64,000 bases of DNA from an uncultured Roseovarius sp. (GTDB taxonomy: Bacteria > Pseudomonadota > Alphaproteobacteria > Rhodobacterales > Rhodobacteraceae): contig CAKSUL010000003.1 in assembly GCA_934501475.1 (NCBI GenBank), positions 5,896 through 69,895 of the forward strand. Reading direction: 5' to 3'. The notes beneath the pieces were generated by a model. The model did not search any database and had not been told where the DNA came from. It worked only from the letters and a program-made list of their open reading frames with translations. Below are positions 284 to 39,067 of the stretch, piece after piece (position 1 is the stretch's first letter; each line of letters begins with the position of its first letter). A program made the position numbers and the translations under genes.

Positions 284-1681
284 TCAGGCGACGTCATAGG
301 GCAGCAATCCGCGCTCATCGGGGTCGATGGCAAGGCGGCGTTCCAGCGGCGGGATCGAGCGTTGGTGGCAATTGATGCGCTCGCAGATCCGGCAGGAAAT
401 GCCGATCGGCTCGAACGCGGCAGGGTTGGAGAGGTCCAGATTGTCGGCATAGACCAGCGCGGGCGCATGTTTCACCTCACAGCCCAGGGCGATGGCGAAA
501 CGGCGCACCGGCGCGCCGAATGATCCGCCCGGTTTCGAGACATCCCGCGCCAGATTGACATAGCGCACCCCGTCCGGCGTTTCGGCCAGTTGGCGCAGGA
601 ACCGGCCCGGCGTTTCAAACGCGCGATGCACGTTCCACAGCGGACAGGCCCCGCCATAGCGCGCGAATTGCATCAGCGTGGCCGAATGCCGCTTGGTGAT
701 GGTGCCGGCCTGATCGACGCGCACGAAAAAGAACGGAATCCCCTTGGCTCCGGGGCGTTGCAGCGTCGAGAGACGATGCGCCACCTGTTCGATCGAGGCC
801 CCGAACCGGTTGGCGAGGATCTCGAGATCATGGCGGCAGTCGCGCGCTTCGCGCTGAAAGCGCTGATAGGGCATCAACGCCGCGCCGGCATAGTAATTGG
901 CCAGACCGATCTTGGCGATGGCGCGGGCCTCGTCCGACTGGAACCGCGCCAGATCCAGCGTCGCCTCAAGCAGTTGATCCTGCGTCAGCAGCGCCAGTTG
1001 CAACAGCGCCTGAAAGCTGCGGGTTTCGGGCGCGGCGCGCGCTGACAGATAGAGCACGCCATTGCCCCGATCGAGGCGGCGCAGCTTGTCGCTGTCGCTC
1101 AGCGCGACGGAAATCCCGATGCCGGACAGGCGGGCGAGGGTGCGTTCATAAATCGACTGGCGCGCATCGCCCGTGGTGCCAAAGCGTTCGGCGGCGCGGT
1201 CCACGGCGTCGATGTAATTGTCGCAGTAGTGAAAGAAATCGCGCACCTCGTTCCAGGGGCTCTGCTGGGTCTGGGCATCGTCGCGGCCCAACGCCTCATC
1301 CAGCGAGGCCAGCCTCTCGTGAGTCTGGCGATAGGCGGCGTGCAGCTCCAGAAAGGCGCGCGCCAGCGCGGGGGCATTGGCGGCCGTCAGGCGCAGATCG
1401 GCCACGGGGGGCGTGTCGGAAAACACCGGATCTGCCAGCGCCTCGCGCATGTCCGACACCATGCGTTCGGCATCGCCCGAGCCCAGTTCGGTGACGTCAA
1501 AGCCGAATTCCTGCGCCAGCGCCAGAACCACCGTCGTGCTGACGGGACGGTTGTTGTTCTCCATCTGGTTCAGATAGGGCAGGGACACGCCCAGCCGCGC
1601 GGCAAAATCCTTTTGGGTGAGGCCAAGGCGCGTGCGCGTTTCGCGCAGCTTGGCCCCGGCATAGAGCTTTCTGGTGGCCAT
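284..1681 (-). CDS. pccR: ScfR-family regulator PccR (short-chain acyl-CoA-sensing, XRE/DUF2083)
   Basis: A 465-residue regulator with an N-terminal XRE helix-turn-helix (about residues 8-65, including GLTQKDFAARLGVS and LNQMENN), a central ImmA/IrrE-like and DUF2083 region, and a Cys-rich C-terminal segment (CRICERINC). This is the architecture of the short-chain fatty acyl-CoA regulators. In Rhodobacter sphaeroides the ScfR member PccR controls pccB and itself through TTTGCAAA-type sites. Here the gene sits one gene away from pccB, and its own promoter carries such boxes at 1694-1731. The open frame continues far upstream, but the ATG at 1681 (MATRKLYAGAKL) starts exactly at the HTH domain, as in the family, and the operator lies just upstream. 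Predicted role: activation or repression of propionyl-CoA carboxylase in response to acyl-CoA. Confidence 0.9.
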   Translation of the reverse strand: MATRKLYAGAKLRETRTRLGLTQKDFAARLGVSLPYLNQMENNNRPVSTTVVLALAQEFGFDVTELGSGDAERMVSDMREALADPVFSDTPPVADLRLTAANAPALARAFLELHAAYRQTHERLASLDEALGRDDAQTQQSPWNEVRDFFHYCDNYIDAVDRAAERFGTTGDARQSIYERTLARLSGIGISVALSDSDKLRRLDRGNGVLYLSARAAPETRSFQALLQLALLTQDQLLEATLDLARFQSDEARAIAKIGLANYYAGAALMPYQRFQREARDCRHDLEILANRFGASIEQVAHRLSTLQRPGAKGIPFFFVRVDQAGTITKRHSATLMQFARYGGACPLWNVHRAFETPGRFLRQLAETPDGVRYVNLARDVSKPGGSFGAPVRRFAIALGCEVKHAPALVYADNLDLSNPAAFEPIGISCRICERINCHQRSIPPLERRLAIDPDERGLLPYDVA

Positions 1682-1693
1682 GAGGTCTCCGGC

Positions 1694-1731
1694 TTTGCAG
1701 CTTTGCTTTGGGGGCAGGTTAGGTTTGCAAA
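1694..1731 (-). promoter_or_regulatory. PccR/ScfR operator array at the pccR promoter
   Basis: On the plus strand: TTTGCA at 1694-1699, TTTGC at 1702-1706, and a perfect TTTGCAAA at 1724-1731. The innermost box lies only 12 bases upstream of the pccR start codon, so bound regulator would block initiation; this fits autorepression. The motif is the one reported for PccR in R. sphaeroides, although the spacing differs from the TTTGCAAA-X4-TTTGCAAA form I recall. Confidence 0.7.
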
Positions 1732-2994: not shown

Positions 2995-3018
2995 ATTGCT
3001 ATGGCTAGGCTCGGCGAT

Positions 3019-3098
3019 CTGCAAAGTCCATCACGCTCGGCCATATATTCAATTTTGCAGATTTGCGGCGTTAGCTTTGCAGGTCTTTGCAAATTTGC
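3019..3098 (+). promoter_or_regulatory. PccR/ScfR operator array upstream of pccB
   Basis: Plus-strand TTTGC cores start at 3054, 3062, 3076, 3086 and 3094; the 3086-3093 copy is the full palindrome TTTGCAAA. A further CTTTGCAG lies on the minus strand at 3019-3026. The block TTTGCAG[A/C]TTTGC followed about 22-24 bases later by TTTGCAAA occurs both here and at the pccR promoter. It ends 63 bases before the pccB start, a good position for transcriptional control. Confidence 0.75.
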
Positions 3099-3161: not shown

Positions 3162-4694
3162 ATGACCGAAATTTTGCAAGAACTGGAAAAGCGGCGCAGC
3201 GAGGCCGTTCTGGGCGGTGGAGCCCACCGGATCGAGGCGCAGCACGCCAAGGGCAAGCTGACCGCGCGCGAACGGATCGAATTGCTGCTGGACGAGGACA
3301 GTTTCGAAGAGTTCGACATGTTCGTCACCCATCGCTGCACCGATTTCGGCATGGAAAAACAACGCCCTTACGGCGATGGCGTGGTCACCGGCTGGGGCAC
3401 GATCAACGGGCGCATGGTCTATCTGTTCAGTCAGGATTTCACCGTCTTTGGCGGCTCGCTCTCGGAAACCCACGCCCAGAAGATCTGCAAGATCATGGAT
3501 ATGGCGGTGCAGAACGGTGCGCCGGTGATCGGCATCAACGATTCGGGCGGCGCGCGCATTCAGGAGGGCGTGGCCTCGCTTGCCGGCTACGCCGAGGTGT
3601 TCCAGCGCAACATCCTCGCCAGCGGCGTCATCCCGCAGATCAGCATCATCATGGGCCCCTGTGCGGGCGGCGCGGTCTATTCCCCGGCGATGACCGACTT
3701 CATCTTCATGGTCAAGGACACGTCCTACATGTTCGTGACCGGCCCCGATGTGGTCAAGACCGTGACCAACGAGGTGGTGACGGCCGAGGAGCTGGGCGGC
3801 GCCTCGACCCATACCCGTAAATCCAGCGTGGCGGACGGCGCCTTTGAGAACGATGTCGAGGCGCTGGCCGAAGTGCGCAGGCTGGTTGATTTCCTGCCCT
3901 CGTCGAACCGCGAGAAACCCCCGGTGCGCCCGTTCTTCGATCAGCCGGGCCGGGTCGAGATGTCGCTTGATACGCTGATCCCCGACAACCCCAACTCGCC
4001 CTATGACATGAAGGAATTGATCACCAAGGTCGCGGATGAGGGTGATTTCTATGAGATCCAGGAGGATTTTGCCCGCAACATCATCACCGGGTTCATCCGC
4101 CTTGAAGGGCGCAGCATCGGCGTGGTGGCCAATCAGCCGATGGTTCTGGCCGGATGTCTGGACATCGACAGTTCACGCAAGGCCGCGCGCTTTGTGCGGT
4201 TCTGCGATGCGTTCGAAATTCCGATCCTGACCTTCGTGGATGTGCCCGGCTTTCTGCCCGGCACCGGGCAGGAATTCGGCGGCGTGATCAAGCATGGTGC
4301 GAAACTGCTGTTCGCCTATGGTCAGGCGACGGTGCCGATGGTGACGGTGATCACCCGCAAGGCCTATGGCGGGGCCTATGACGTGATGGCGTCCAAACAT
4401 CTGCGCGCCGATATCAACTATGCGTGGCCCACCGCCGAGATCGCGGTGATGGGCGCCAGGGGCGCGACCGAGATCATCCACCGCGCCGATCGCGACAACC
4501 CCGAAAAGCTGGCCCAGCACACCAAGGATTACGAGGCGCGCTTTGCCAATCCGTTCGTTGCCGCCGAACGCGGCTTTATTGACGAGGTGATCATGCCCCA
4601 CAGCACACGCGTGCGCGTCAGCCGCGCCTTTGCGTCGCTGCGGCAGAAAAAGGCGGATATCCCATGGAAAAAACACGACAACATTCCGCTGTGA
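3162..4694 (+). CDS. pccB: Propionyl-CoA carboxylase beta subunit (carboxyltransferase)
   Basis: 510 residues, the usual length. It transfers the carboxyl group from biotin to propionyl-CoA, giving (S)-methylmalonyl-CoA, as the beta part of the PccAB dodecamer. The N-terminal acyl-CoA carboxylase half contains [10 protein letters not shown] (about 128-137) and [11 protein letters not shown] (about 164-174), whose glycines form an oxyanion hole; the C-terminal half has [26 protein letters not shown] and [10 protein letters not shown]. The ATG at 3162 has an AAGGGG ribosome site at 3150-3155. Expression is probably set by the PccR array upstream. Its partner pccA lies 2.4 kb downstream, beyond several small genes and a strong terminator, so the two subunits are not in one simple operon. 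Confidence 0.97.
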
Positions 4695-7083: not shown

Positions 7084-8856
7084 ATGTTCAAGAAGATCCT
7101 GATCGCCAACCGCGGTGAAATCGCCTGTCGCGTGATCAAGACCGCCCGCGAAATGGGCATTCAGACGGTCGCGATCTATTCCGACGCGGACCGCAACGCG
7201 TTGCATGTGCGCATGGCTGACGAAGCGATCCATATCGGCCCGTCCCCCGCCAACGAGAGCTATATCGTGATCGAGCGCGTCATGGACGCGATCCGCCGGA
7301 GCGGCGCCGAGGCCGTGCATCCCGGTTATGGTTTTCTCAGCGAAAATGCCAGTTTCGCCGAGGCGCTCGAGGCCGAGGGCGTCGCCTTTATCGGCCCGCC
7401 CACCGGCGCGATCAAGGCGATGGGCGACAAGATCACCAGCAAGAAAATCGCCCAGGAGGCCGGTGTCAGCACCGTGCCCGGCTACATGGGCCTGATCGCG
7501 GATGCCGAAGAGGCGGTCAAGATCAGCAACCAGGTCGGCTATCCGGTGATGCTCAAGGCCTCTGCGGGGGGCGGCGGCAAGGGGATGCGCATCGCCTGGA
7601 ACGATGTTGAGGCGCGCGAGGGCGAACAGGCCGTGGCTCTCGCGCAGGCCGTCGATTACGCAAGCGCCGGAACGGTGGAATTCATCGTCGATGGCGACAG
7701 GAATTTCTATTTCCTTGAGATGAACACCCGCCTTCAGGTGGAACACCCCGTCACCGAGCTGATCACCGGGGTCGATCTGGTCGAACAGATGATCCGCATC
7801 GCCAATGGCGAAAAGCTGACCATCGCGCAAAGCGATGTGAAACTGAATGGCTGGGCCATCGAGAGCCGCCTTTACGCCGAAGATCCCTATCGCAATTTCC
7901 TGCCCTCGATCGGCCGTCTGACCCGCTATCGCCCGCCACAGGCGCTGGCCGTTGAGGGGGCCGTGGTGCGCAATGATACCGGCGTCTTCGAGGGCGGCGA
8001 GATCAGCATGTTCTACGACCCGATGATTGCCAAGCTGTGCACATGGGCCCCGACCCGCGCCGAGGCGATCGAGGGGATGCGCAACGCGCTCGATGCGTTC
8101 GAGGTTGAGGGGATCGGCCATAACCTGCCCTTCCTCAGCGCGGTGATGGATCATCCGAAATTCGTCAGTGGCGACATCACCACCGCCTTCATCGCCGAGG
8201 AATATCCCGATGGCTTTGACGGGGTCTCCCTGCCGGACGCCGCGCTGAGGCGGATCGCCGCCAGTTGCGCCGCGATGCACCGCGTTGCCGAGATCCGCCG
8301 CACCCGCCTGTCAGGGCGCATGGACAATCACGAACGCCATGTCGGCGATGACTGGGTCGTGACATTGCAGGATCAGGCCCATAGCGTGACGATCGATGCC
8401 TATCCGGGCGGGGCGACGGTGCGTTTTGCCGATGGCGGCGCGGTCAAGGTGACCAGCGACTGGACACCGGGCGATCAGCTGGCCACGCTGGATGTGGACG
8501 GGGTTCCACTGGTTCTGAAGGTGGGCAAGGTGTCGGGTGGTTTCCGCATCCGCAGCCGCGGGGCGGACATGATTGTGCATGTGCGCACGCCGCGTCAGGC
8601 CGAACTGGCGGCGTTAATGCCCGAGAAACTTCCGCCTGATACATCCCGTCTGCTGCTGTGCCCGATGCCGGGGCTGGTGGTGTCGGTCAGCGTCGTCGTG
8701 GGCGATGAGGTGCAGGAGGGGCAATCGCTGTGCACGATCGAGGCGATGAAGATGGAAAACATCCTGCGCGCCGAACGCAAGGCGGTCGTGACGCGGATCA
8801 ATGCCGGGCCGGGCGACAGTCTGGCCGTCGATGAAATCATCATGGAGTTCGAATAA
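7084..8856 (+). CDS. pccA: Propionyl-CoA carboxylase alpha subunit with internal in-frame deletion
   Basis: 590 residues; homologues are about 666. It should carboxylate biotin with ATP and bicarbonate. The N-terminal biotin-carboxylase start (KILIANRGEIACRV), the glycine loop GGGGKGMRI (about 162-170), the later LEMNTRLQVEHPVTE and the C-terminal biotinyl motif EAMKMEN (Lys556) are all intact. Between AREG and GEQAVALAQ at residue 180 (base 7621) the family normally has about 76 residues, including the IEKFV and RHIEIQ strands, ERECSIQRR and EEAPSP, which carry ATP- and bicarbonate-binding residues (E201 to K238 region in E. coli biotin carboxylase numbering). They are absent here, yet the frame is kept. 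The product as written should be inactive. ATG at 7084 with an AAGGGG site. An assembly collapse is the main alternative. Confidence 0.9.
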   Translation: MFKKILIANRGEIACRVIKTAREMGIQTVAIYSDADRNALHVRMADEAIHIGPSPANESYIVIERVMDAIRRSGAEAVHPGYGFLSENASFAEALEAEGVAFIGPPTGAIKAMGDKITSKKIAQEAGVSTVPGYMGLIADAEEAVKISNQVGYPVMLKASAGGGGKGMRIAWNDVEAREGEQAVALAQAVDYASAGTVEFIVDGDRNFYFLEMNTRLQVEHPVTELITGVDLVEQMIRIANGEKLTIAQSDVKLNGWAIESRLYAEDPYRNFLPSIGRLTRYRPPQALAVEGAVVRNDTGVFEGGEISMFYDPMIAKLCTWAPTRAEAIEGMRNALDAFEVEGIGHNLPFLSAVMDHPKFVSGDITTAFIAEEYPDGFDGVSLPDAALRRIAASCAAMHRVAEIRRTRLSGRMDNHERHVGDDWVVTLQDQAHSVTIDAYPGGATVRFADGGAVKVTSDWTPGDQLATLDVDGVPLVLKVGKVSGGFRIRSRGADMIVHVRTPRQAELAALMPEKLPPDTSRLLLCPMPGLVVSVSVVVGDEVQEGQSLCTIEAMKMENILRAERKAVVTRINAGPGDSLAVDEIIMEFE

Positions 8857-8862
8857 CGCACC

Positions 8863-9393
8863 ATGCCCCGCCATCGCCGCCATATGCCAGAGCGCGCCGT
8901 CACCTTGCTGGCCTGTGCCTGCCTGATGTGGATCGCCTCTGCGTGCGCGCGCGACGATGAGGCGGCGATGCGCACGCGTCTGGTGCGGTGGTTCTCGCTG
9001 GGCGACACGGTGGTGTTCAAGGCCGGGCCGGACTGTGCGGCGGCGGTTTTCCGGGTGGTGGATACGCGGATCAAATCGTCGATGCGGGTCACGGATGGCG
9101 TGTCCCTCGCGCTTTATGCGTGGCGTGAGCGCAGCGCGGTGGCGGTGGACAATCGCGCGCTCAGCCCGGACCGGGTCATCGTGCAGGTGGCGGATGCGCG
9201 CCGGGATCTGGGGATGCGGATGCGCCGCGCGGCGCTGGAATCGCGTGGCTGCATGGGCGAGGGCGCGGAGGATGCATTTCGCGCGGCCCTGATGGCGCCC
9301 GGCGCGGTTCTGGCATGGGATGAGGACAGCGCCGCCCTGATGCTGCTGGATACACGCACGAAACTGCTGATCGTCGCGATGGGAAGCCACTGA
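8863..9393 (+). CDS. Putative lipoprotein downstream of pccA
   Basis: 176 residues starting 6 bases after the pccA stop, so it is co-transcribed. A hydrophobic leader (AVTLLACACLMWIASAC) ends in ASAC, a likely though not ideal lipobox. A second start at 8884 (MPERAV) would give a neater signal sequence. The mature part has two spaced Cys (PDCAAAVF and SRGCMGEG) that may pair, and no catalytic motif I recognise. Genes of this type recur after pccA in Rhodobacterales, but a role in propionyl-CoA metabolism would be odd for an exported protein. Function unknown. Confidence 0.7.
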   Translation: MPRHRRHMPERAVTLLACACLMWIASACARDDEAAMRTRLVRWFSLGDTVVFKAGPDCAAAVFRVVDTRIKSSMRVTDGVSLALYAWRERSAVAVDNRALSPDRVIVQVADARRDLGMRMRRAALESRGCMGEGAEDAFRAALMAPGAVLAWDEDSAALMLLDTRTKLLIVAMGSH

Positions 9394-10051: not shown

Positions 10052-10987
10052 ATGGATATCATCCTTCATCTCGGGGCGCATCGCACCGCCACGACAAGTT
10101 TTCAGTATTACCTGCGCAAGAACGCGGCGCGCCTCGGGTGGGAGGGGATCGTGGTTCTTGGCCCGCGCCAGACCCGCAATGGCCTGTTCTCGGGTGTGTT
10201 TGCGGCCCCCGGCGCGACGCCTGCCGCCCAGCAGTTGCGCCGCGCCCGTGGACGCATCGCCCTGCGCCTTGAGCGTGAACGCGCCAAGGGCGCGCGGGTG
10301 ATGGTGATCAGCGATGAAAACATGATCGGCGCGCCCCGGCGCAATCTGCGCGACATGCGGCTCTATGCCGATATAGGTCAGCGGATGGCGCGCTATCACG
10401 ATGCGTTCGATGGCCGGATCGGGCGGGTCGTGCTCAGCATCCGCGCGCAGGACTGTTATTGGAATTCGGTGATTGCATTTGCTATTGAACGCGGGGGCGC
10501 CGTGCCGTCGCCTGCGCGGATCTCGTGTATTGCACAGGGCGCGCGCGGCTGGCGCGACGTGATCGGCGATCTGGCCTGCGCGCTGCCCGATGTGGCAATC
10601 GAGGTGATGGTGCATGAAACCTACGCCAGCCTGCCCGAGCGCAAGCTGGAGATCATGACCGGGGCCGCGGACCTGCCGCGCACCTATGCGCGCGAATGGC
10701 TGAACCGCGCGCCGGATCTCGCGCAATTGCGCGCATTGCTGAAAGAGCGCGGGATCGAACCCGGCCCGCGACTGCAGGGTGACGGGCGGGGCCAGTTCTT
10801 TGATGAGGCGCAGGTCGCGGCCCTGCGTGAGGCCTATGCGGATGATCTATTCTGGCTGAGGTCCGGTGCGGACGGGCTGGCCGTTTTGACAGAGGAAACC
10901 GATCCGGAAGGAGTGGGGCAAACCCCGCCCGCCGGAGTGAACACAAGAGGACAGTCAGGTGAAAAGCAAAATCGACGAATGGCGTAG
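10052..10987 (+). CDS. Sulfotransferase-like protein
   Basis: 311 residues from the ATG at 10052. The N-terminus [20 protein letters not shown] has the phosphate-loop pattern (GxxRTxTTS) that binds the 5'-phosphosulfate of PAPS in sulfotransferases. [11 protein letters not shown] and the later [19 protein letters not shown] resemble the second PAPS-binding region in bacterial sulfotransferase-family proteins. The acceptor cannot be inferred. The gene runs 29 bases into the mutase gene, its stop at 10985-10987, so the two must be transcribed together and may be translationally linked. The last 30 or so residues look poorly conserved and might have been extended over the mutase leader. Confidence 0.72.
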
Positions 10988-13088
10988 CATCGCCGAAAAG
11001 GAACTGCGCGGGCGCGATCCGGACGATCTGACCTGGGACACGATCGAGGGGATCAAGGTCAAGCCGCTCTATACCGAGGACGATCTGGTGGGGCTGGATC
11101 ATCTGGGCAGCATCCCCGGCGCCGCCCCGTTCACGCGCGGCGTCAAGGCGACGATGTATGCCGGGCGCCCCTGGACGATCCGCCAATATGCCGGGTTTTC
11201 CACCGCCGAGGAATCAAACGCCTTTTACCGCCGCAACCTGGCAGCCGGGCAGCAGGGCGTTTCGGTGGCCTTCGATCTGGCCACGCATCGCGGCTATGAC
11301 AGCGACCACCCCCGCGTCGAGGGCGATGTGGGCAAGGCCGGTGTCGCCATCGACAGTGTCGAGGACATGAAGATCCTGTTCGATCAGATCCCGCTGGACA
11401 AGGTCAGCGTGTCGATGACCATGAACGGCGCGGTGATCCCGATCCTGGCCAGTTTCATCGTCGCCGGTGAGGAACAGGGGCATGACAAGTCGGTCCTGTC
11501 CGGCACCATCCAGAATGATATCCTCAAGGAATTCATGGTGCGCAACACCTATATCTATCCGCCCGAGCCCTCGATGCGGATCATCAGCGACATCATCGAG
11601 TATACCAGCAACGAGATGCCGAAATTCAACTCGATCAGCATCTCGGGCTATCACATGCAGGAGGCCGGCGCGAACCTGGTGCAGGAACTGGCCTATACGC
11701 TGGCGGATGGGCGCGAATATGTGCGCGCGGCGGTGCAGGCCGGCATGGATGTGGACAAATTCGCCGGGCGGCTGTCGTTCTTTTTCGCCATCGGGATGAA
11801 TTTCTTCATGGAGGCGGCGAAACTGCGTGCCGCGCGGCTGCTGTGGCACCGGATCATGACGGAATTCGGCGCGCAGAGCGAGCGCTCCAAGATGCTGCGC
11901 ACCCATTGCCAGACCTCGGGCGTGAGCCTGCAGGAACAGGACCCCTACAACAACGTGGTGCGCACCGCCTATGAGGCGATGAGCGCGGCCCTTGGCGGCA
12001 CGCAATCCCTGCACACCAACGCGCTGGATGAGGCGATGGCGCTGCCCACCGATTTCAGCGCCCGCATCGCGCGCAACACCCAGCTGATCCTGCAGGAGGA
12101 AACCGGCATCACCAACGTGGTCGATCCCCTCGCCGGGAGCTATTATGTCGAAAGCCTGACCGCCGAACTGGCGCAAAAGGCCTGGGAGTTGATCGAGGAA
12201 GTCGAGGCCATGGGCGGCATGACCAAGGCCGTGGCGACCGGGATGCCCAAGCTGCGCATCGAGGAATCGGCGGCCAAGCGCCAGGCGATGATCGACCGGG
12301 GCAGCGAGGTCATCGTCGGGGTGAACAAATACCGTCTGGCCGAGGAGGATCCGATCGACATTCTGGACATCGACAATTCGGCCGTGCGCCTGTCGCAGAT
12401 CGCCCGGCTGGAGAAGATCCGCGCAACGCGCGACGGCGCCGCCTGCGAGGCGGCATTGGCCAACCTGGCGCGCTGTGCGGCCGAGGGCGGCAATATTCTG
12501 GAGGCCGCGATCGAGGCGGCGCGCGCACGCGCAACGGTGGGAGAGATCAGCATGAGCATGGAAAAGACCTTTGGCCGGCACCGCGCCGAGGTGAAGACGC
12601 TGGCCGGTGTCTATGGCGCCGCCTATGAGGGGGATGAGGGCTTTGCCGCCATCCAGAAATCGGTCGAGGATTTTGCCGAGGCCGAAGGCCGCCGCCCCCG
12701 GATGCTGGTGGTCAAGATGGGTCAGGATGGCCATGACCGCGGCGCCAAGGTGATCGCGACCGCCTTCGCCGATATCGGTTTCGACGTGGATGTGGGGCCG
12801 CTGTTCCAGACCCCCGAAGAGGCGGCGCAGGATGCGGTGGACAATGACGTGCATGTTGTCGGCATCAGTTCGCAGGCCGCCGGGCACAAGACCCTCGCGC
12901 CCAAGCTGATCGAGGCGCTGAATGCCAAGGGCGCGGGTGATATCCTGGTGATCTGTGGCGGCGTGATTCCGCAGCAGGATTATGCGTTTCTGAAAGCGGC
13001 GGGCGTCAAGGCGATCTTTGGCCCCGGCACCAATATCCCCGAGGCGGCGCAGGATATCCTGCGTCTGATCCGGGCCTCGCGCGGATAA
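10959..13088 (+). CDS. mcm: Adenosylcobalamin-dependent methylmalonyl-CoA mutase
   Basis: 709 residues, the size of the single-chain mutase. It isomerises (R)-methylmalonyl-CoA to succinyl-CoA, completing propionyl-CoA assimilation. The N-terminal TIM barrel carries [14 protein letters not shown], the catalytic region [21 protein letters not shown] and [12 protein letters not shown]; the C-terminal B12 domain starts near 565 with the axial-ligand motif DGHDRG (His592) and later GGVIPQQDY. The start is a GTG at 10959 with AAGAGGA upstream; it overlaps the preceding gene by 29 bases. The gene is complete, in contrast to pccA. B12 supply is supported elsewhere in the window by cobS and cobT. Confidence 0.97.
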
Positions 13089-14609: not shown

Positions 14610-15293
14610 ATGTCGCTCTGGACCCGAATATCCGAGGCTATCTCGGCGTTGGCCTCTGGCGAGGGGCTGAGCGCCGTCTTTGAGCGGTTGCGCACCCCGC
14701 CCGAGCGCAGCGTCGCCTTTGCGATTGCGGTGATCGCGCTTGGCGCGAAGATGGCCAAGGCCGACGGGCAGGTGACCCGCGCCGAGGTGACCGCGTTTCG
14801 CGAGGTGTTCCAGATCCCGCCCGAGGATGAGGCGGGGGCCGCGCGGGTGTTCAATCTGGCGCGTCAGGATGTCGCCGGGTTCGAGGAATACGCCGCCCGC
14901 GTCAAGCGCATGTTCGGTGACGAAAAGGAGGTTCTGACCGACCTTCTGGAGGGGCTGTTTCACATTGCCCTGGCTGACGGCGAATATCACCCCAACGAGG
15001 ATGCGTTTCTGAAACGGGTGGCGCAGATATTCGGCCTTGGGGGGCCGTGTTTCTCGATGTTGCGCCATCGCTTCGTGCCAGATATTTCGCCCGATCCCTA
15101 TACGTTGCTGGGGGTCACACCGCAGGACCCGCTGGAGGTGATACAGGCCCGATACCGCGCGATGGTGCGCGAGAACCACCCCGACAAGATGTTCGCGCGC
15201 GGCGTTCCCGAAGAGGCGATCAAGTTGGCGGAGCGGCGCATGGTTGATATCAACCGCGCATGGGATGAGATCAGGGCAGGGCGCGGCGGATGA
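14610..15293 (+). CDS. TerB + DnaJ co-chaperone (DjlA-like, cytosolic)
   Basis: 227 residues. The first 150 form a TerB-like helical domain (AKMAKADGQVTRAEVTAFREVF and the repeat ALADGEYHPNEDAFL, acidic D-G-x-x-x-x-E turns). The last 65 are a J-domain (YTLLGVTPQDPLEVIQARYRAMVRENHPDK) with an intact HPD motif, so it should stimulate DnaK ATPase. Unlike DjlA of E. coli it lacks an N-terminal membrane helix. Its TGA overlaps the ATG of the next gene (ATGA, 15290-15293), so translation is coupled. Clients unknown; it is one of three TerB-type proteins in the window. Confidence 0.88.
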   Translation: MSLWTRISEAISALASGEGLSAVFERLRTPPERSVAFAIAVIALGAKMAKADGQVTRAEVTAFREVFQIPPEDEAGAARVFNLARQDVAGFEEYAARVKRMFGDEKEVLTDLLEGLFHIALADGEYHPNEDAFLKRVAQIFGLGGPCFSMLRHRFVPDISPDPYTLLGVTPQDPLEVIQARYRAMVRENHPDKMFARGVPEEAIKLAERRMVDINRAWDEIRAGRGG

Positions 15294-28550: not shown

Positions 28551-30842
28551 ATGAACAAGGCGATAACCGATGGTCTGGTGCTGATGCCGACCGCTTTTGC
28601 GCAGGGTCTGGATGTCTGGTCCAGCGGCGATGGCACGCCCGGCTCGGATACCTATGACGGTGCGGCCAATGCGGCCCTTGTGGTGGCGGATCAGGATTTT
28701 GGCGGTGCGCTGGAGATGCAAAAGACCCAGACCCTGCAAAAGCTGCGCTATATGGCGGAAACGCCGCTGTTGCCGGGCTGCTATCTGCGCATCACCGCGC
28801 GGATCAAGGCGATTTCGGGCAATTTGCCGACCGTGCGGATTGCCGGCTGGGCCGGCGGGGCGGGGGGCACGCATGTCACCGGCCTGACCGAGACCGGGCC
28901 TGCGGTCACCCTTCAGACCTATGGCGAGGTGGTCGAGGTGTCGGCCATTGTCGGCGCGGGCAACCGTGGCGGGGTCGATATGGTCTGGGGCGCGCAGCCG
29001 CTTTATGGGCATTTCGGGCTGGACCTGACCGGGACCAATGGCGGTATCGTGCGCGTGGACGATCTGGTGATCGAGGATATCACCGCGGCGTTCCTGCGCG
29101 ACATGATGGATTGGGTCGATGTGCGCGATTTCGGCGCGGTCGGCGATGGCGTCAGCGACGATCAGCAGGCGTTCGAGGCGGCGGATGCGGCGGCGGCGGG
29201 TCGCGATGTTCTGGTGCCCGCCGGCAATTACTACCTGGGCGACAGCGTGACCTTTCAGTCAAGCGTGCGCTTTGAGGGCATCGTCACCATGCCCGACGAC
29301 AAGGTGCTTTCGCTGACCCGCAACTATGACTATCCCAGTTATCTCGACGCGTTCGGCGATGAGGATCTGGCCTTTCGCAAGGCGTTTCAGGCGCTGCTGA
29401 ACAATGTCGGGCATGATTCACTGGATCTGAAGGGGCGGGTGATCACGCTGCGCGCGCCGGTCGACATGCAGGCGGCCGAAGGGACGATAACCAGCTATTC
29501 GCAGCGCCGCCTGATCAAGAACGGTCAGCTTTACGCCGCCACCACCTCCAACTGGGACACGGATGTGTTCACCTCGCAGGCGACCTATTCGCCTGGCGAC
29601 AGTCTGAAGCTGACCAATGTCGCCAATGTGGCCAATATCCCCATCGGTGCGCTGATCGAAGGCAATGGCGTGGGCCGCGAGGTCTATGTCAGCGCCAAGA
29701 ACATCGCCGCGCAGGAGTTGATCATCTCGCAGCAGCTCCATGACGCGGCGGGCACGCAGGTGTTCACCTTCCGGCGGTTCAAATACATGCTGGATTTCGG
29801 CGGTTTTGAAAAACTGTCGAAGTTTTCCCTGTCCAACATCGAATTCCAATGCGATGGCATGGCGAGCGGGGTCATGCTGCCCTCGACCGGCACCGGGTTT
29901 CATTTCCGCGACTGTTTCTTTACCGGCCCCAAGGATCGCGGGATTTCCAGCGCCTACAAGGGCGATCAGGGCATGATCGTGGACCGCTGTCAGTTCCTGT
30001 CCAACGAGGGGCCGATCCTCAGCGTGAACCGCACCACGATCGCCCTGAATGCCAATGCGAATGACGTGAAACTGCGCAACAACCGCGTGGTCAAGTTCCG
30101 CCATTTCGCGGTGCTGTGCGGTTCAAGCAACGTGATCACCGGCAACCACTGGTTCCAGGGCGACAACTCGAACGATGCCGGGCGCACCGCCGGGCTGGTG
30201 CTGAGCCGCTCGAACGCGCGCACCACGATCAACGCCAACTATATCGATAACTGCTTTATCGAATGGGGCAATGAGCATGACAGCGCGCCCGGGTTCTCAA
30301 GCGAGTTCTCGTTCAGCGCGCTCAACATCACCGACAACGTGTTTCTGGCCGGGAACGTGGCACCGTGGTTTACCTATCTGGTGGTCAAACCGTATGGTGC
30401 GGGGCATTATCTGAACGGGCTGACCGTCACCGGCAATTCGTTCCGCATCATCGACGATCCGATTGACCGGGTGGATATGGTCGATACGACATTCGCGGAT
30501 CTGGACTATAACAGGTTCAAGAATATCAACTTTTCCAACAACACCTTCAACAATGTCAATGTCTCGGTGGCCAGCCCGCTGGCGGTCGAGCATGTGCAAA
30601 ACACCCCCTCGGCGGATTGGACGGTGGATTTTGGCGACCGCCTGCCATTCGGGGCATGGGCGCAGACGGTGATGTCGGCGATTCCGGCGGGGCCGTTGAC
30701 GACCGGGTCGGGCAGTATCGTCTATGCCGCGCCGTTCTATCAGGCCAAGCAGGGTCCGGACCAGGATCAGATCCGCCTGCGCTGGCCCGACAACGTGAAG
30801 GGGGCGGTCACCATGGTGGTGCGGATCGACGACGTGGATTGA
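28551..30842 (+). CDS. Beta-helix spike-like protein (pectate-lyase/GH28-related fold)
   Basis: 763 residues, no signal peptide. Residues 1-185 form a jelly-roll-like region; WVDVRDFGAVGDGVSDDQQAF (near 188-208) is the entry motif of the pectate-lyase/GH28-related right-handed beta-helix seen in phage tailspikes. What follows is rich in Asn-turn repeats (SALNITDNVFLAGN, GLTVTGNSF, INFSNNTFNNVNVSV), each a helix rung. A last domain of about 90 residues ends in VRIDDVD. I associate near-identical layouts with roseobacter genomes, possibly as capsule-binding spikes of gene transfer agents (GhsB-like); that link is unconfirmed. No phage structural genes adjoin it. Confidence 0.75.
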   Translation: MNKAITDGLVLMPTAFAQGLDVWSSGDGTPGSDTYDGAANAALVVADQDFGGALEMQKTQTLQKLRYMAETPLLPGCYLRITARIKAISGNLPTVRIAGWAGGAGGTHVTGLTETGPAVTLQTYGEVVEVSAIVGAGNRGGVDMVWGAQPLYGHFGLDLTGTNGGIVRVDDLVIEDITAAFLRDMMDWVDVRDFGAVGDGVSDDQQAFEAADAAAAGRDVLVPAGNYYLGDSVTFQSSVRFEGIVTMPDDKVLSLTRNYDYPSYLDAFGDEDLAFRKAFQALLNNVGHDSLDLKGRVITLRAPVDMQAAEGTITSYSQRRLIKNGQLYAATTSNWDTDVFTSQATYSPGDSLKLTNVANVANIPIGALIEGNGVGREVYVSAKNIAAQELIISQQLHDAAGTQVFTFRRFKYMLDFGGFEKLSKFSLSNIEFQCDGMASGVMLPSTGTGFHFRDCFFTGPKDRGISSAYKGDQGMIVDRCQFLSNEGPILSVNRTTIALNANANDVKLRNNRVVKFRHFAVLCGSSNVITGNHWFQGDNSNDAGRTAGLVLSRSNARTTINANYIDNCFIEWGNEHDSAPGFSSEFSFSALNITDNVFLAGNVAPWFTYLVVKPYGAGHYLNGLTVTGNSFRIIDDPIDRVDMVDTTFADLDYNRFKNINFSNNTFNNVNVSVASPLAVEHVQNTPSADWTVDFGDRLPFGAWAQTVMSAIPAGPLTTGSGSIVYAAPFYQAKQGPDQDQIRLRWPDNVKGAVTMVVRIDDVD

Positions 30843-35974: not shown

Positions 35975-37291
35975 CTAAACCTTTTCCAGATAGGTGATCC
36001 AGTGCCTTTCGGTCGGGATCTCACCCATGCGGCGCAACTCCTGGCGTTTGGTCATGACCAGGTTTTTGATCATGTGCGGGCCGAAGATGGCCGCGATGGC
36101 GGGCGAGGTTTCGAACAGATCGATCGCGCTGGCCCAGTCGGTGGCCATTTGCGGCAGATCCTTGTCATAGGCGCTGCCGCGCATCGCCGGTCCGGGATCG
36201 GCGCCGGAATCGATCCCGTTCATGGCGGCGCCCAGAATCACCGCAAAGCTGAGATAGGGGTTGATGTCGCCGCCGGCAACGCGGTGCTCGATGCGGCGCG
36301 CGCGCGGTGCGCCACCGGGAACGCGGATCGCGGCGGTGCGGTTCTCATAGGCCCAGCAGATCGACGTGGGCGCGTGGGCACCGGGCACCATGCGCTCATA
36401 GCTGTTGGCATGGGGGCAAAAGATCAGCGTCGAGTCCGCCATCGCCTCAAGGCAGCCGGCAATCGCCGCGCGCAGCGTGTCGCTGCCCTTGGGCGTGCCA
36501 TCGTCGAATATGTTCGCGCCGTCCCGGTCCAGCACGGAAAAATGCATGTGCATCCCGTTGCCCGCATCCTCGGGAAAGGGTTTGGCCATGAAGGTCGCGG
36601 CAAACCCCCGCTGGCGCGCCAGCCCGCGGATCAGTGCCTTGAAGAACCAGGTATCGTCGGCGGCGCGCAGCGCGTCCTGATGGTTCAGCGTGATCTCGAA
36701 CTGGCCGACGCCGGATTCCGAGGTGGCGGTCTGCGCCTCGATCCCCATGGCCGCGCAGCCCTCGTAAAGCGCCGAGAGGAAATCATCGAACGCGTCCATC
36801 TGGCTGAGCGACAGGATCTCGGAGCCGTCGATTCGCCGCCCGTTGCGCGGGTCATGCACATGTTTCAGGATGTCGGCGCTGTCATCCACCAGCGTGAATT
36901 CCAGCTCGGTCGAGGCGATCACCTGCCAGCCGCGCGCCTCATAGCGCTCAAGCACCCGGCGCAGCGCATGGCGCGGGTCGCCCTCAAACGGGCGGCCATC
37001 CTCGTGATACATCTGCATCGGCACCAATGGCTGCGCCGAACCCAGCCAGGGCAGGGGCATCGGGCCGCGCGAGGTGGGGCGCAGTATGCCATCGGCATCG
37101 CCGGATTCAAACACCAGCGGGCTGTCCTCGATATCGGCCCCCTTGATGTCGACATTCAGCACCGAAAGCGGCATCCGCACGGCACCTTCCTCCAGCGTGG
37201 CGGCGTAGGCGCCGGGCACGCGTTTGCCCCGCATCTGGCCGTTGAGGTCGCAGGCCGCGACGCGGAAGGTGGCGTATTCACTCAGATACAT
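35975..37291 (-). CDS. Second glutamine synthetase-family protein (PuuA-like)
   Basis: 438 residues. Same fold as the neighbour but only moderately similar: STELEFTLVDD, GVGQFEITLNHQDALRAADD, MAKPFPEDAGNGMHMHFS, ENRTAAIRVPGG and NPYLSFAVILGAAM. The layout fits gamma-glutamylputrescine synthetase (PuuA). It starts 84 bases downstream of the PhnD-like gene's stop and ends 186 bases before the amidotransferase operon on the same strand. Whether it has its own promoter is open; a TTTGCAAA octamer lies 63-70 bases upstream of its ATG. Confidence 0.9.
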   Translation of the reverse strand: MYLSEYATFRVAACDLNGQMRGKRVPGAYAATLEEGAVRMPLSVLNVDIKGADIEDSPLVFESGDADGILRPTSRGPMPLPWLGSAQPLVPMQMYHEDGRPFEGDPRHALRRVLERYEARGWQVIASTELEFTLVDDSADILKHVHDPRNGRRIDGSEILSLSQMDAFDDFLSALYEGCAAMGIEAQTATSESGVGQFEITLNHQDALRAADDTWFFKALIRGLARQRGFAATFMAKPFPEDAGNGMHMHFSVLDRDGANIFDDGTPKGSDTLRAAIAGCLEAMADSTLIFCPHANSYERMVPGAHAPTSICWAYENRTAAIRVPGGAPRARRIEHRVAGGDINPYLSFAVILGAAMNGIDSGADPGPAMRGSAYDKDLPQMATDWASAIDLFETSPAIAAIFGPHMIKNLVMTKRQELRRMGEIPTERHWITYLEKV

Positions 37292-37353: not shown

Positions 37354-37361
37354 TTTGCAAA
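37354..37361. promoter_or_regulatory. TTTGCAAA octamer upstream of the second synthetase gene
   Basis: Third perfect TTTGCAAA in the window, set in AATTTGCAAAT. Only a single box, without the TTTGC array found at pccB and pccR. Confidence 0.3.
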
Positions 37362-37375
37362 TCCGCAAGGGGACG

Positions 37376-38155
37376 TCACGGCGCGCCGTCAATGCGCGCG
37401 CCCGCGGGCGGGGGCGGTGTCGGAACCGCCAGATAGGCCGCGGCGGGCATGCGGACAATACCACGCAGGCCCAGAGTGGCGCGGACCTGCGCGGGCAGGG
37501 ACGCAAAGGCGGCGGTGATGGCGGCGAAATGCCTCTCGGGGTCGCGCCCCGGCGCGGTGATATAGGGCAGGGCGGGCGTGGGCGGCGTTTCCTCCACCAC
37601 CCTGAGCGTGCGGGCCATGTCGCAGTGGCGTTGCAGCAATGTCCAGCTCAGGATGTCGATCCCGGCGATATCGGCCTGTCCTGTCGCCACGGCGCGGATC
37701 GATGCGGCGTGCGCCCCGGTCTCGATCGACGCGCCAAAGCGCAGGCCGCGTATGCGCGCGTGATCTTGCGGCGCGGCCCAGCCGCTTTGGGACATTGGAT
37801 CATTGAAGGCCAGACGCGCACCTGCGAATTGCGCCAGATCGCGGCGCGCATCATCACGGCGCGCCACCATGACGGTGCTGTAATAGCCCGCCGGCAGATG
37901 CGCCAGATCCAGCACCGGCGCGCCGATCAGCGTCACCCGCCCATGCAATCGCGTGCGATAGGGATAGCCGCAGGTCTGTGACAGGATCAGATCGGGGCTT
38001 TGCCAGTGATCCCAGGGATCGCCGCCACGGCACAGCGCCTGCGGGCCCTCACCCAATACGGCCCGTATCGCCGACCAGAGCGCATCATTTCCCGCGCGCG
38101 TCTCGGGCAGGTCATACATCGGCAGGCTGGCGATCAGACCTGCCTGCGCGCTCAT
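37376..38155 (-). CDS. PhnD/SsuA-like protein without signal peptide
   Basis: 259 residues. The type 2 periplasmic-binding fold is shown by LILSQTCGYPYRTRL, YYSTVMVARRDDAR, ARLAFNDPMSQSGW and VATGQADIAGIDILSW, the phosphonate/sulfonate binding-protein (PhnD) pattern. It starts MSAQAGLIASLPMYDLPETR with no signal sequence or lipobox and no ABC transporter genes nearby, so it is probably cytosolic and may sense rather than transport a ligand. Its ATG overlaps the stop of the upstream TerB gene (ATGA), coupling the two. Confidence 0.78.
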   Translation of the reverse strand: MSAQAGLIASLPMYDLPETRAGNDALWSAIRAVLGEGPQALCRGGDPWDHWQSPDLILSQTCGYPYRTRLHGRVTLIGAPVLDLAHLPAGYYSTVMVARRDDARRDLAQFAGARLAFNDPMSQSGWAAPQDHARIRGLRFGASIETGAHAASIRAVATGQADIAGIDILSWTLLQRHCDMARTLRVVEETPPTPALPYITAPGRDPERHFAAITAAFASLPAQVRATLGLRGIVRMPAAAYLAVPTPPPPAGARIDGAP

Positions 38156-38589
38156 TTTCCGGTGACCCGCTGACGCGCCAGATTGCTGTCGCGGTCATTG
38201 ACGCCCAGCAGATTGGCCGCCAGCCGCAGCAGCGCGTCCTCTTCGTCATCGCGCACCCCGTCCGCCAGCGCCACCTGCCACAGCGCCTCGACCACGCTGA
38301 CGCGGTCTTCGTAAGGCACCTTGTCCTTGATCGCGCGGGTGAAACGGACGGTATCGGGGGCGTGGCCCTCAAGGATTTCGGCGTCGCGGCGCAGCGCCTT
38401 GGCATCGTCATTGCTCAGCTCATAGCGCGCCTCAAGGATGCGGTCGATGCGGATGATCTCATCCGCCGCATAGTCCCCGTCGGTGCGCGCCACGCGCACC
38501 AGCAGCGCGCTCAGCGCCAGCCTGGCGTCGGTTTCGGTCAGTGGATCGGCGGCGGACTGGGTCAGCCTTTTGATGAAATCAGCAAACAT
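38152..38589 (-). CDS. TerB-like protein, copy 2
   Basis: 145 residues from the ATG at 38589 (MFADFIKRL). Helical TerB domain with paired acidic motifs: ALLVRVARTDGDYAADEIIRIDRIL and ALWQVALADGVRDDEEDALLRLAANLLG, both with D-G-x(5)-E turns. It parallels the next gene upstream residue by residue and is clearly a paralogue. TerB-like proteins occur in tellurite resistance and stress systems as metal-binding or membrane-associated factors. It is translationally coupled to the PhnD-like protein. Confidence 0.85.
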   Translation of the reverse strand: MFADFIKRLTQSAADPLTETDARLALSALLVRVARTDGDYAADEIIRIDRILEARYELSNDDAKALRRDAEILEGHAPDTVRFTRAIKDKVPYEDRVSVVEALWQVALADGVRDDEEDALLRLAANLLGVNDRDSNLARQRVTGK

Positions 38590-38629
38590 GGGATCAGATA
38601 TAGGGGCGCGTGCACGCCGCGCCAATGGT

Positions 38630-39067
38630 TTAATTCATGTTGGCGCGGGCGCGGGCGGCCTCGCAATCGGCCATGCTCAGCCCGAGGGCGTCGCGCACCT
38701 GATCGACAACGCGCGATTCGGCCTCATTGGCCACGCCATCGGCCAGCATCACCTGCCACAGCGCCTCATGCGCCTGCACCCGCTGGTCGAATTCGACCGA
38801 ATCGCGAATCAGCCGGGCGAATTCACCGGTGTCGGGGGCCTGGGCCTCGATCTTTTCGCAGGTGGCGCGCAGTTTGGCGGCCTCGACCGGGTTCAGCCCG
38901 TGCATCTGCGCCAAAAGACGGTCGATCAGGCGGATTTCCTCAAAATCATAGGTCTTGTCGGATTTGGCCACTCGCACCATCAGCGCGCCCAATGCCAGGC
39001 GTGCATCGGGCACCGGCAAGGGGGCCGGCGCGCGTGTGCGAAAGATGTTCAAGATACCCAGTCCCAT
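38630..39067 (-). CDS. TerB-like protein, copy 1
   Basis: 145 residues, paralogue of the downstream gene: ALMVRVAKSDKTYDFEEIRLIDRLL and ALWQVMLADGVANEAESRVVDQVRDALGL occupy the same positions. The first D-G turn is changed to S-D-K-T, so one of the two acidic sites may have lost its role. It starts MGLGILNIFRT, a short amphipathic end that could touch the membrane. First gene of a three-gene operon (TerB, TerB, PhnD-like), 40 bases from the second copy. Confidence 0.85.
   Translation of the reverse strand: MGLGILNIFRTRAPAPLPVPDARLALGALMVRVAKSDKTYDFEEIRLIDRLLAQMHGLNPVEAAKLRATCEKIEAQAPDTGEFARLIRDSVEFDQRVQAHEALWQVMLADGVANEAESRVVDQVRDALGLSMADCEAARARANMN

Follow-up and report, generated by a model that had tools for sequence, protein, structure and literature searches.

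The pccA gene at 7084..8856 (plus strand) of the window, i.e., the whole 64-kb stretch of DNA analyzed here, is an open frame of 590 codons followed by a stop codon, and it raises the question of whether part of a carboxylase gene has been lost from the chromosome, has been dropped during sequencing and assembly, or is dispensable for the enzyme. Relative to its family, the encoded PccA lacks residues 181-256, a block of 76 amino acid residues (228 bp) that is missing exactly in frame. The deletion junction (7621..7624, plus strand) reads GAG GGC GAA, in which GGC is the Gly180 codon and the following GAA is homologous to the codon of residue 257; the joint at base 7621 creates zero new amino acids.

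The gap was analyzed by pairwise and multiple alignment. When the short form was compared by phmmer with the solved relative 3n6r_A, residues 1-184 matched at offset 0 and the residues from 179 onward at offset 76, and the same two-piece alignment was obtained with 6ybp_G. A single 76-column gap in the short form was observed in the alignment with P0002 (an intact protein described below) and six other PccA proteins of 666 residues, and the motifs IEKFV, RHIEIQ, ERECSIQRR and EEAPSP were all located within the block of P0002 that the short form lacks. Judged by these alignments, short pccA is a deletion relative to the family. The original prediction had given a length of 590 against 666, a joint at base 7621, a preserved frame, and the absence of these four motifs between flanks that align with the family, all of which agreed with the open frame, the phmmer results and the P0002 alignment. 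A frameshift or a split gene was ruled out by the one open frame, and an N-filled gap by the window, which is without any N. The PccA family also includes a class of 681/682 residues; the 15 extra residues of 3n6r_A sit further on and are unrelated to the 76-residue gap.

Domains and Active-Site Residues of the Short PccA

The short form was found to contain the biotin carboxylase (BC) N-terminal domain (PF00289; E 1.7e-46, profile 1-109 of 110), the BC C-terminal domain (PF02785; profile 1-107 of 108), the PCC-type BT domain (PF18140; profile 2-126 of 126) and the biotinyl domain (PF00364). The biotinylation motif AMKM (residues 554-557; 8743..8754, plus strand), with K556 taken as the biotinyl lysine, was retained. 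The ATP-grasp profile (PF02786, CPSase_L_D2) was split into two stretches, the best of which covered 143-209 of 211, and the short form does not have the whole ATP-grasp domain with its contacts to adenine, ribose and phosphate. The gene is the same by descent as the PccA of Rhodobacteraceae (solved relative 3n6r_A), with which it shares the BC N- and C-terminal, BT and biotinyl domains, the PccB partner and the mcm neighbor, but differs from it in lacking ATP-grasp residues 181-256 and in the divided CPSase_L_D2.

Contacts to ATP, Mg and bicarbonate were taken from the BC domain of the L. lactis pyruvate carboxylase, as given in PMC9581989, and were transferred to P0002 through shared motifs rather than a structural alignment, the L. 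lactis numbers shifting by 0 to +2; the phosphate contact of Lys236 comes from docking in PMC12550680. The residue types agreed with the L. lactis contacts except for Ile202, which is a valine in P0002. By this transfer, E200, K201 and V203 (adenine), H208, Q232 and N235 (ribose) and K237 (phosphate) are absent from the short form, which leaves one adenine contact of four and no ribose contact of three, and takes away one phosphate contact. The adenine contact that stays is K158; the phosphate contacts of K116 and the glycine loop are likewise present, together with R338, which has a role at biotin. Lys158 and the glycine-rich T-loop of the ATP-grasp (residues 158-165) lie at 7555..7578 (plus strand). 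The Mg and bicarbonate residues E199, E212, R216, Q218, V219 and E220 of the short form (7678..7743, plus strand) are also retained, and their equivalents in P0002 numbering are E275 and E288 (Mg) and R292, Q294, V295 and E296 (bicarbonate). The deletion had been proposed to remove residues for both ATP and bicarbonate; the ATP part stands, with seven contacts gone, but the loss of bicarbonate residues was not borne out because the main ligands R292, Q294, V295 and E296 are retained. The predicted failure of biotin carboxylation is supported, at the level of sequence, by the lost ATP contacts.

In the product, the BC N- and C-terminal, BT and biotinyl domains would be kept along with the glycine loop and the residues for Mg and bicarbonate. 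The end of the B-lid would be lost, as would the strands and loops after it, which hold adenine and ribose, and one phosphate-side lysine. We expect such a PccA to be translated, and it could retain biotinylation and contact with PccB; carboxyphosphate or carboxybiotin should not be made by it, and the cell would be left with genes for PccR, PccB and Mcm but without propionyl-CoA carboxylation.

Structure prediction was performed by AlphaFold2 with 40-row alignments of the same 40 proteins for the short form and the intact control. The short form reached a mean pLDDT of 69.2 and a pTM of 0.64, with residues 113-145 and 148-219 below 50, whereas the intact control reached 82.5 and 0.77, with four short segments below 50 and with ten-residue pLDDT means of 59 to 95 in the segments matching 113-145 and 148-219. 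The top structural match of the short-form model was 3n6r (TM 0.73-0.74, rmsd 7.5-9.6). The modeled contrast in pLDDT is strong and falls mainly in the ATP-grasp, although misfolding is unprovable from a model of this kind.

Neighboring Genes and Putative PccR Sites

The pccR-like gene for an ScfR-family regulator (284..1681, minus strand), pccB (3162..4694, plus strand; 510 residues), mcm for methylmalonyl-CoA mutase (10959..13088, plus strand; 709 residues) and the MFS gene of the cluster all showed nearly full-length domains. Indels of 8 or more residues were counted in the relative loci L001-L080, using the best match that covered at least 95% of the protein. Zero indels of this size were found in pccB (64/71 loci with a match at this coverage), mcm (61/69) and the MFS gene (38/40), which speaks against a general indel problem in the window, and pccR showed three indels of 8-9 residues (30/35 loci at this coverage) and one 16-residue indel in a partial match (101 loci, repeats included). 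When the window was scanned, 49 of the 57 other predicted ORFs were compared with Pfam or, for ten of them, NCBIfam; nine of these were without any match and so are uninformative on indels, and ORF 28551-30842 had a weak match only.

The pccB gene preceded mcm on the pccA strand in 61/63 relative loci with both genes, and linkage to pccA was found. The sequence TTTGCAAA, the putative core of PccR sites, occurs three times in the 64-kb window (0.22 expected from base composition). One putative site (1724..1731) is located between pccR and the MFS gene, and a second (3086..3093), accompanied by copies with one mismatch at 3018 and 3054, upstream of pccB. Among the relative loci, TTTGCAAA was observed within 250 bp upstream of pccB in 38/64, of pccR in 28/32 and of mcm in 0/51, against shuffled expectations of 0.14, 0.02 and 0.06 loci, respectively. 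The control region of the pcc cluster thus looks unaffected. Taken with the domain scans and the indel counts, the sites at 1724 and 3086 supported the earlier view that pccB, mcm and the putative PccR sites look intact.

An Intact Protein Almost Certainly of the Same Species

As shown by the protein search (best 120 of 7999 matches), the short protein was counted on two contigs, the longest of 91,053 bp, which may be one assembly deposited twice. The second match, P0002, is an ENA protein of 666 residues from one 40,363-bp contig. Its residues 1-180 and 257 to the end are identical to the short form (590/590), and the block FQSS...RAMG is extra in P0002. The other matches listed (best 120 of 7999) are proteins of 666 residues, with one of 684. 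Given that the remaining aligned PccA proteins are at most 88% identical to the short form and at most 89% to P0002, the 590/590 identity makes P0002 almost certainly a protein of the same species. The short form is therefore one of the states of this species and not the sole one, and the identity to P0002 indicates that the event was recent and is unfixed in the species.

The ORF downstream of pccA (8863..9393, plus strand) was without a Pfam match and gave four matches among 1261 candidates, its own cluster included; the cluster is found on three public contigs and has two member sequences. These three contigs fit the two short-form contigs and the intact one, and are presumably the same.

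With a query spanning the junction (residues 161-202), the short form scored 76 bits and P0002 65 bits. Among the matches listed (best 120 of 7842), no other protein covered more than 76% of residues 161-202 and none had the joint, which is private to the short form in this set. At least three of the four block motifs were matched by 234/234 other PccA proteins fetched from the best 120 of 7999 and the best 120 of 7842. Seven of the fetched proteins are shorter (461-616 residues) and were considered as possible carriers of the deletion; P0123, P0191 and P0127 were examined and have late starts, with the block present. The exact junction 30-mer gave 0 matches in viral_contigs, a set that is little informative about a chromosome.

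The Deleted Block in Relatives

The relative loci were the best 80 of 590 confirmed stretches in genome_contigs. All 76 block residues were present and stop-free in 78 of them, the other two (L036 and L051) beginning at a contig end inside or after the block, and the identity of the block in these 78 loci ranged from 53 to 73 of 76 residues, with a median of 68. The homologous glycine codons were exactly 228 bp apart in 78/78 measurable relatives (80 loci). In the genus of Roseovarius sp. 217 (G002, the genome behind L002), 77/84 genomes matched P0002 at E 1e-250 or better, of which 76 spanned residues 1-666 and one residues 38-666, with zero stops. The other seven comprised G445, with a frameshift near residue 368, G447 and G459, with partial copies (that of G447 at a contig end), and G452, G453, G457 and G467, with matches of at most 55% identity only.

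The pccA gene of G445 (L103, ∼2601-2604) has residues 1-368 in one frame and 368-666 in the next. This case shows that public genomes can contain a broken-looking pccA, through biology or error, which counts against the reading of a real deletion.

Intact DNA of the same species was sought in the 12 genomes behind the loci, in 394 genomes of the family, and in two genera, with 2 and 84 genomes respectively. Under a strict cut-off, pccA was matched in 208/394 genomes of the family and in 1/2 and 65/84 of those of the two genera; intact pccA DNA of the same species was not found in these genomes, the best long DNA match being 83% identical. Matches were obtained in 267 plasmid records, two of them at 90-95% identity, and none covered 80% of the 20-kb query.

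Origin of the Gap and Competing Explanations

Of 78 relatives, 40 had no exact ungapped repeat at the homologous ends of the block (0 bp), 22 had one of 3 bp and 16 one of 4 bp. An intact allele using GGC at both places would give the two ends a common GGGC; the longer gapped repeat of the original prediction would depend on the codons of that allele. Four base pairs of repeat can give rise to a deletion now and then, but an ordinary k-mer graph collapse would need more. Because the repeats of the relatives are only 0-4 bp, we lean toward real DNA. The explanation that we hold to be probable, with some reserve, is a very recent 228-bp in-frame null deletion in one lineage of a Roseovarius-like species, other members of which have the intact gene. 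We infer that the DNA of the short allele is real and that its activity is lost.

The main competitor is that the cell carries an intact pccA of 666 codons, from which 228 bp were dropped in library preparation, assembly, bubble removal or polishing. The existence of the otherwise identical intact protein P0002 is consistent with such an artifact, as is the state of the rest of pccA and of the cluster, which shows no decay and no second mutation; moreover, the window is probably a metagenome contig, the longest contig with the short protein being 91,053 bp. Against it stand the shortness of the exact repeats (at most 4 bp in the 78 relatives), a window without N, and the count of the short protein on two contigs, which may not be independent. 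As all else is perfectly identical, the artifact is kept as a serious possibility, somewhat doubtful but of real weight.

A variant of the real deletion, which we regard as rather unlikely, is that the population is polymorphic for a working carboxylase and that an in-frame null allele has risen enough to be assembled, with PccR, PccB and Mcm kept, since the loss is neutral or favored in the habitat or the inactive biotinylated alpha subunit has another role.

That the protein of 590 residues is functional, as a shortened but active or repurposed PccA under selection, is very improbable. The intact frame, the joint without a new residue, and the retained AMKM motif and BT domain would suit such a protein. 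However, an in-frame outcome is expected in 1 of 3 cases by chance, the block is highly conserved (median 68 of 76 residues identical in 78 loci) and holds seven mapped ATP contacts, the remnant of the ATP-grasp was modeled without confidence, and the joint was absent from all other proteins among the matches listed (best 120 of 7842). Least probable of all, to the point of being hardly credible, is a deletion fixed in the species or clade with P0002 as contamination or from another species, for although only one intact contig of the exact sequence is known (best 120 of 7999 matches), P0002 is identical at 590/590 positions as compared with at most 88% (short form) and 89% (P0002) for the other aligned PccA proteins. 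The short pccA is either a recently broken allele of a known enzyme, unseen elsewhere among the matches listed, or an assembly error; it is not a new kind of system.

Consequences and Comparison with Known Cases

According to PMC12632250, transposon mutants of C. sphaeroides in pcc did not grow on propionate/HCO3- or butyrate/HCO3-, were negative or compromised on 3-hydroxypropionate, and were only compromised on acetate. These mutants are laboratory insertions in another genus, whereas the short form is a natural or artifactual deletion known from sequence. The original prediction of lost growth through the ethylmalonyl-CoA pathway was too strong in view of the mutants described there, which were merely compromised on acetate. 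In R. capsulatus, according to PMC10370305, deletion of pccR impaired growth on propionate and left growth on acetate and malate unaffected. The same growth pattern would be expected for cells with the short allele, unless a second PccA or another route is present. A limited literature search gave nothing on a propionyl-CoA carboxylase deletion in Roseovarius, nor on the carboxylase with Roseobacter DMSP/acrylate.

The human PCCA variant p.Asp240_Gln247del, an in-frame deletion of eight residues, is classed as pathogenic in PMC8073151, the authors of which describe its effect as 'not as obvious' as that of a second in-frame deletion in their study. The variant resembles the short form in being an in-frame loss in the B-subdomain lid of the biotin carboxylase domain, but it removes 8 residues through mis-splicing, whereas 76 residues are missing from the bacterial DNA itself.

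If the deletion is real, the two forms are a natural allele pair, the proteins of which are identical outside one block of 76 residues, and they allow one to ask when Rhodobacteraceae dispense with propionyl-CoA carboxylation. If it is an artifact, automatic annotation would probably still report a normal carboxylase, and metabolic models that use the gene would be wrong. In either case, metagenome bins can be screened for broken biotin carboxylases simply by looking for the 76-residue block.

Other Features of the Window

The third copy of TTTGCAAA (37354-37361) is remote from the pcc cluster; it lies upstream of a glutamine synthetase-like gene (35975-37291, minus strand) and is possibly a further ScfR-type site. 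A phosphonate-binding-like ORF (37376-37936) matched profile positions 84-235 of 242 with the chosen start, and its frame is open further upstream. Two adjacent TerB-domain genes, encoding 145 residues each, were observed at 38152-39067 on the minus strand, and a TerB protein with a weak DnaJ match is encoded at 14649-15293.
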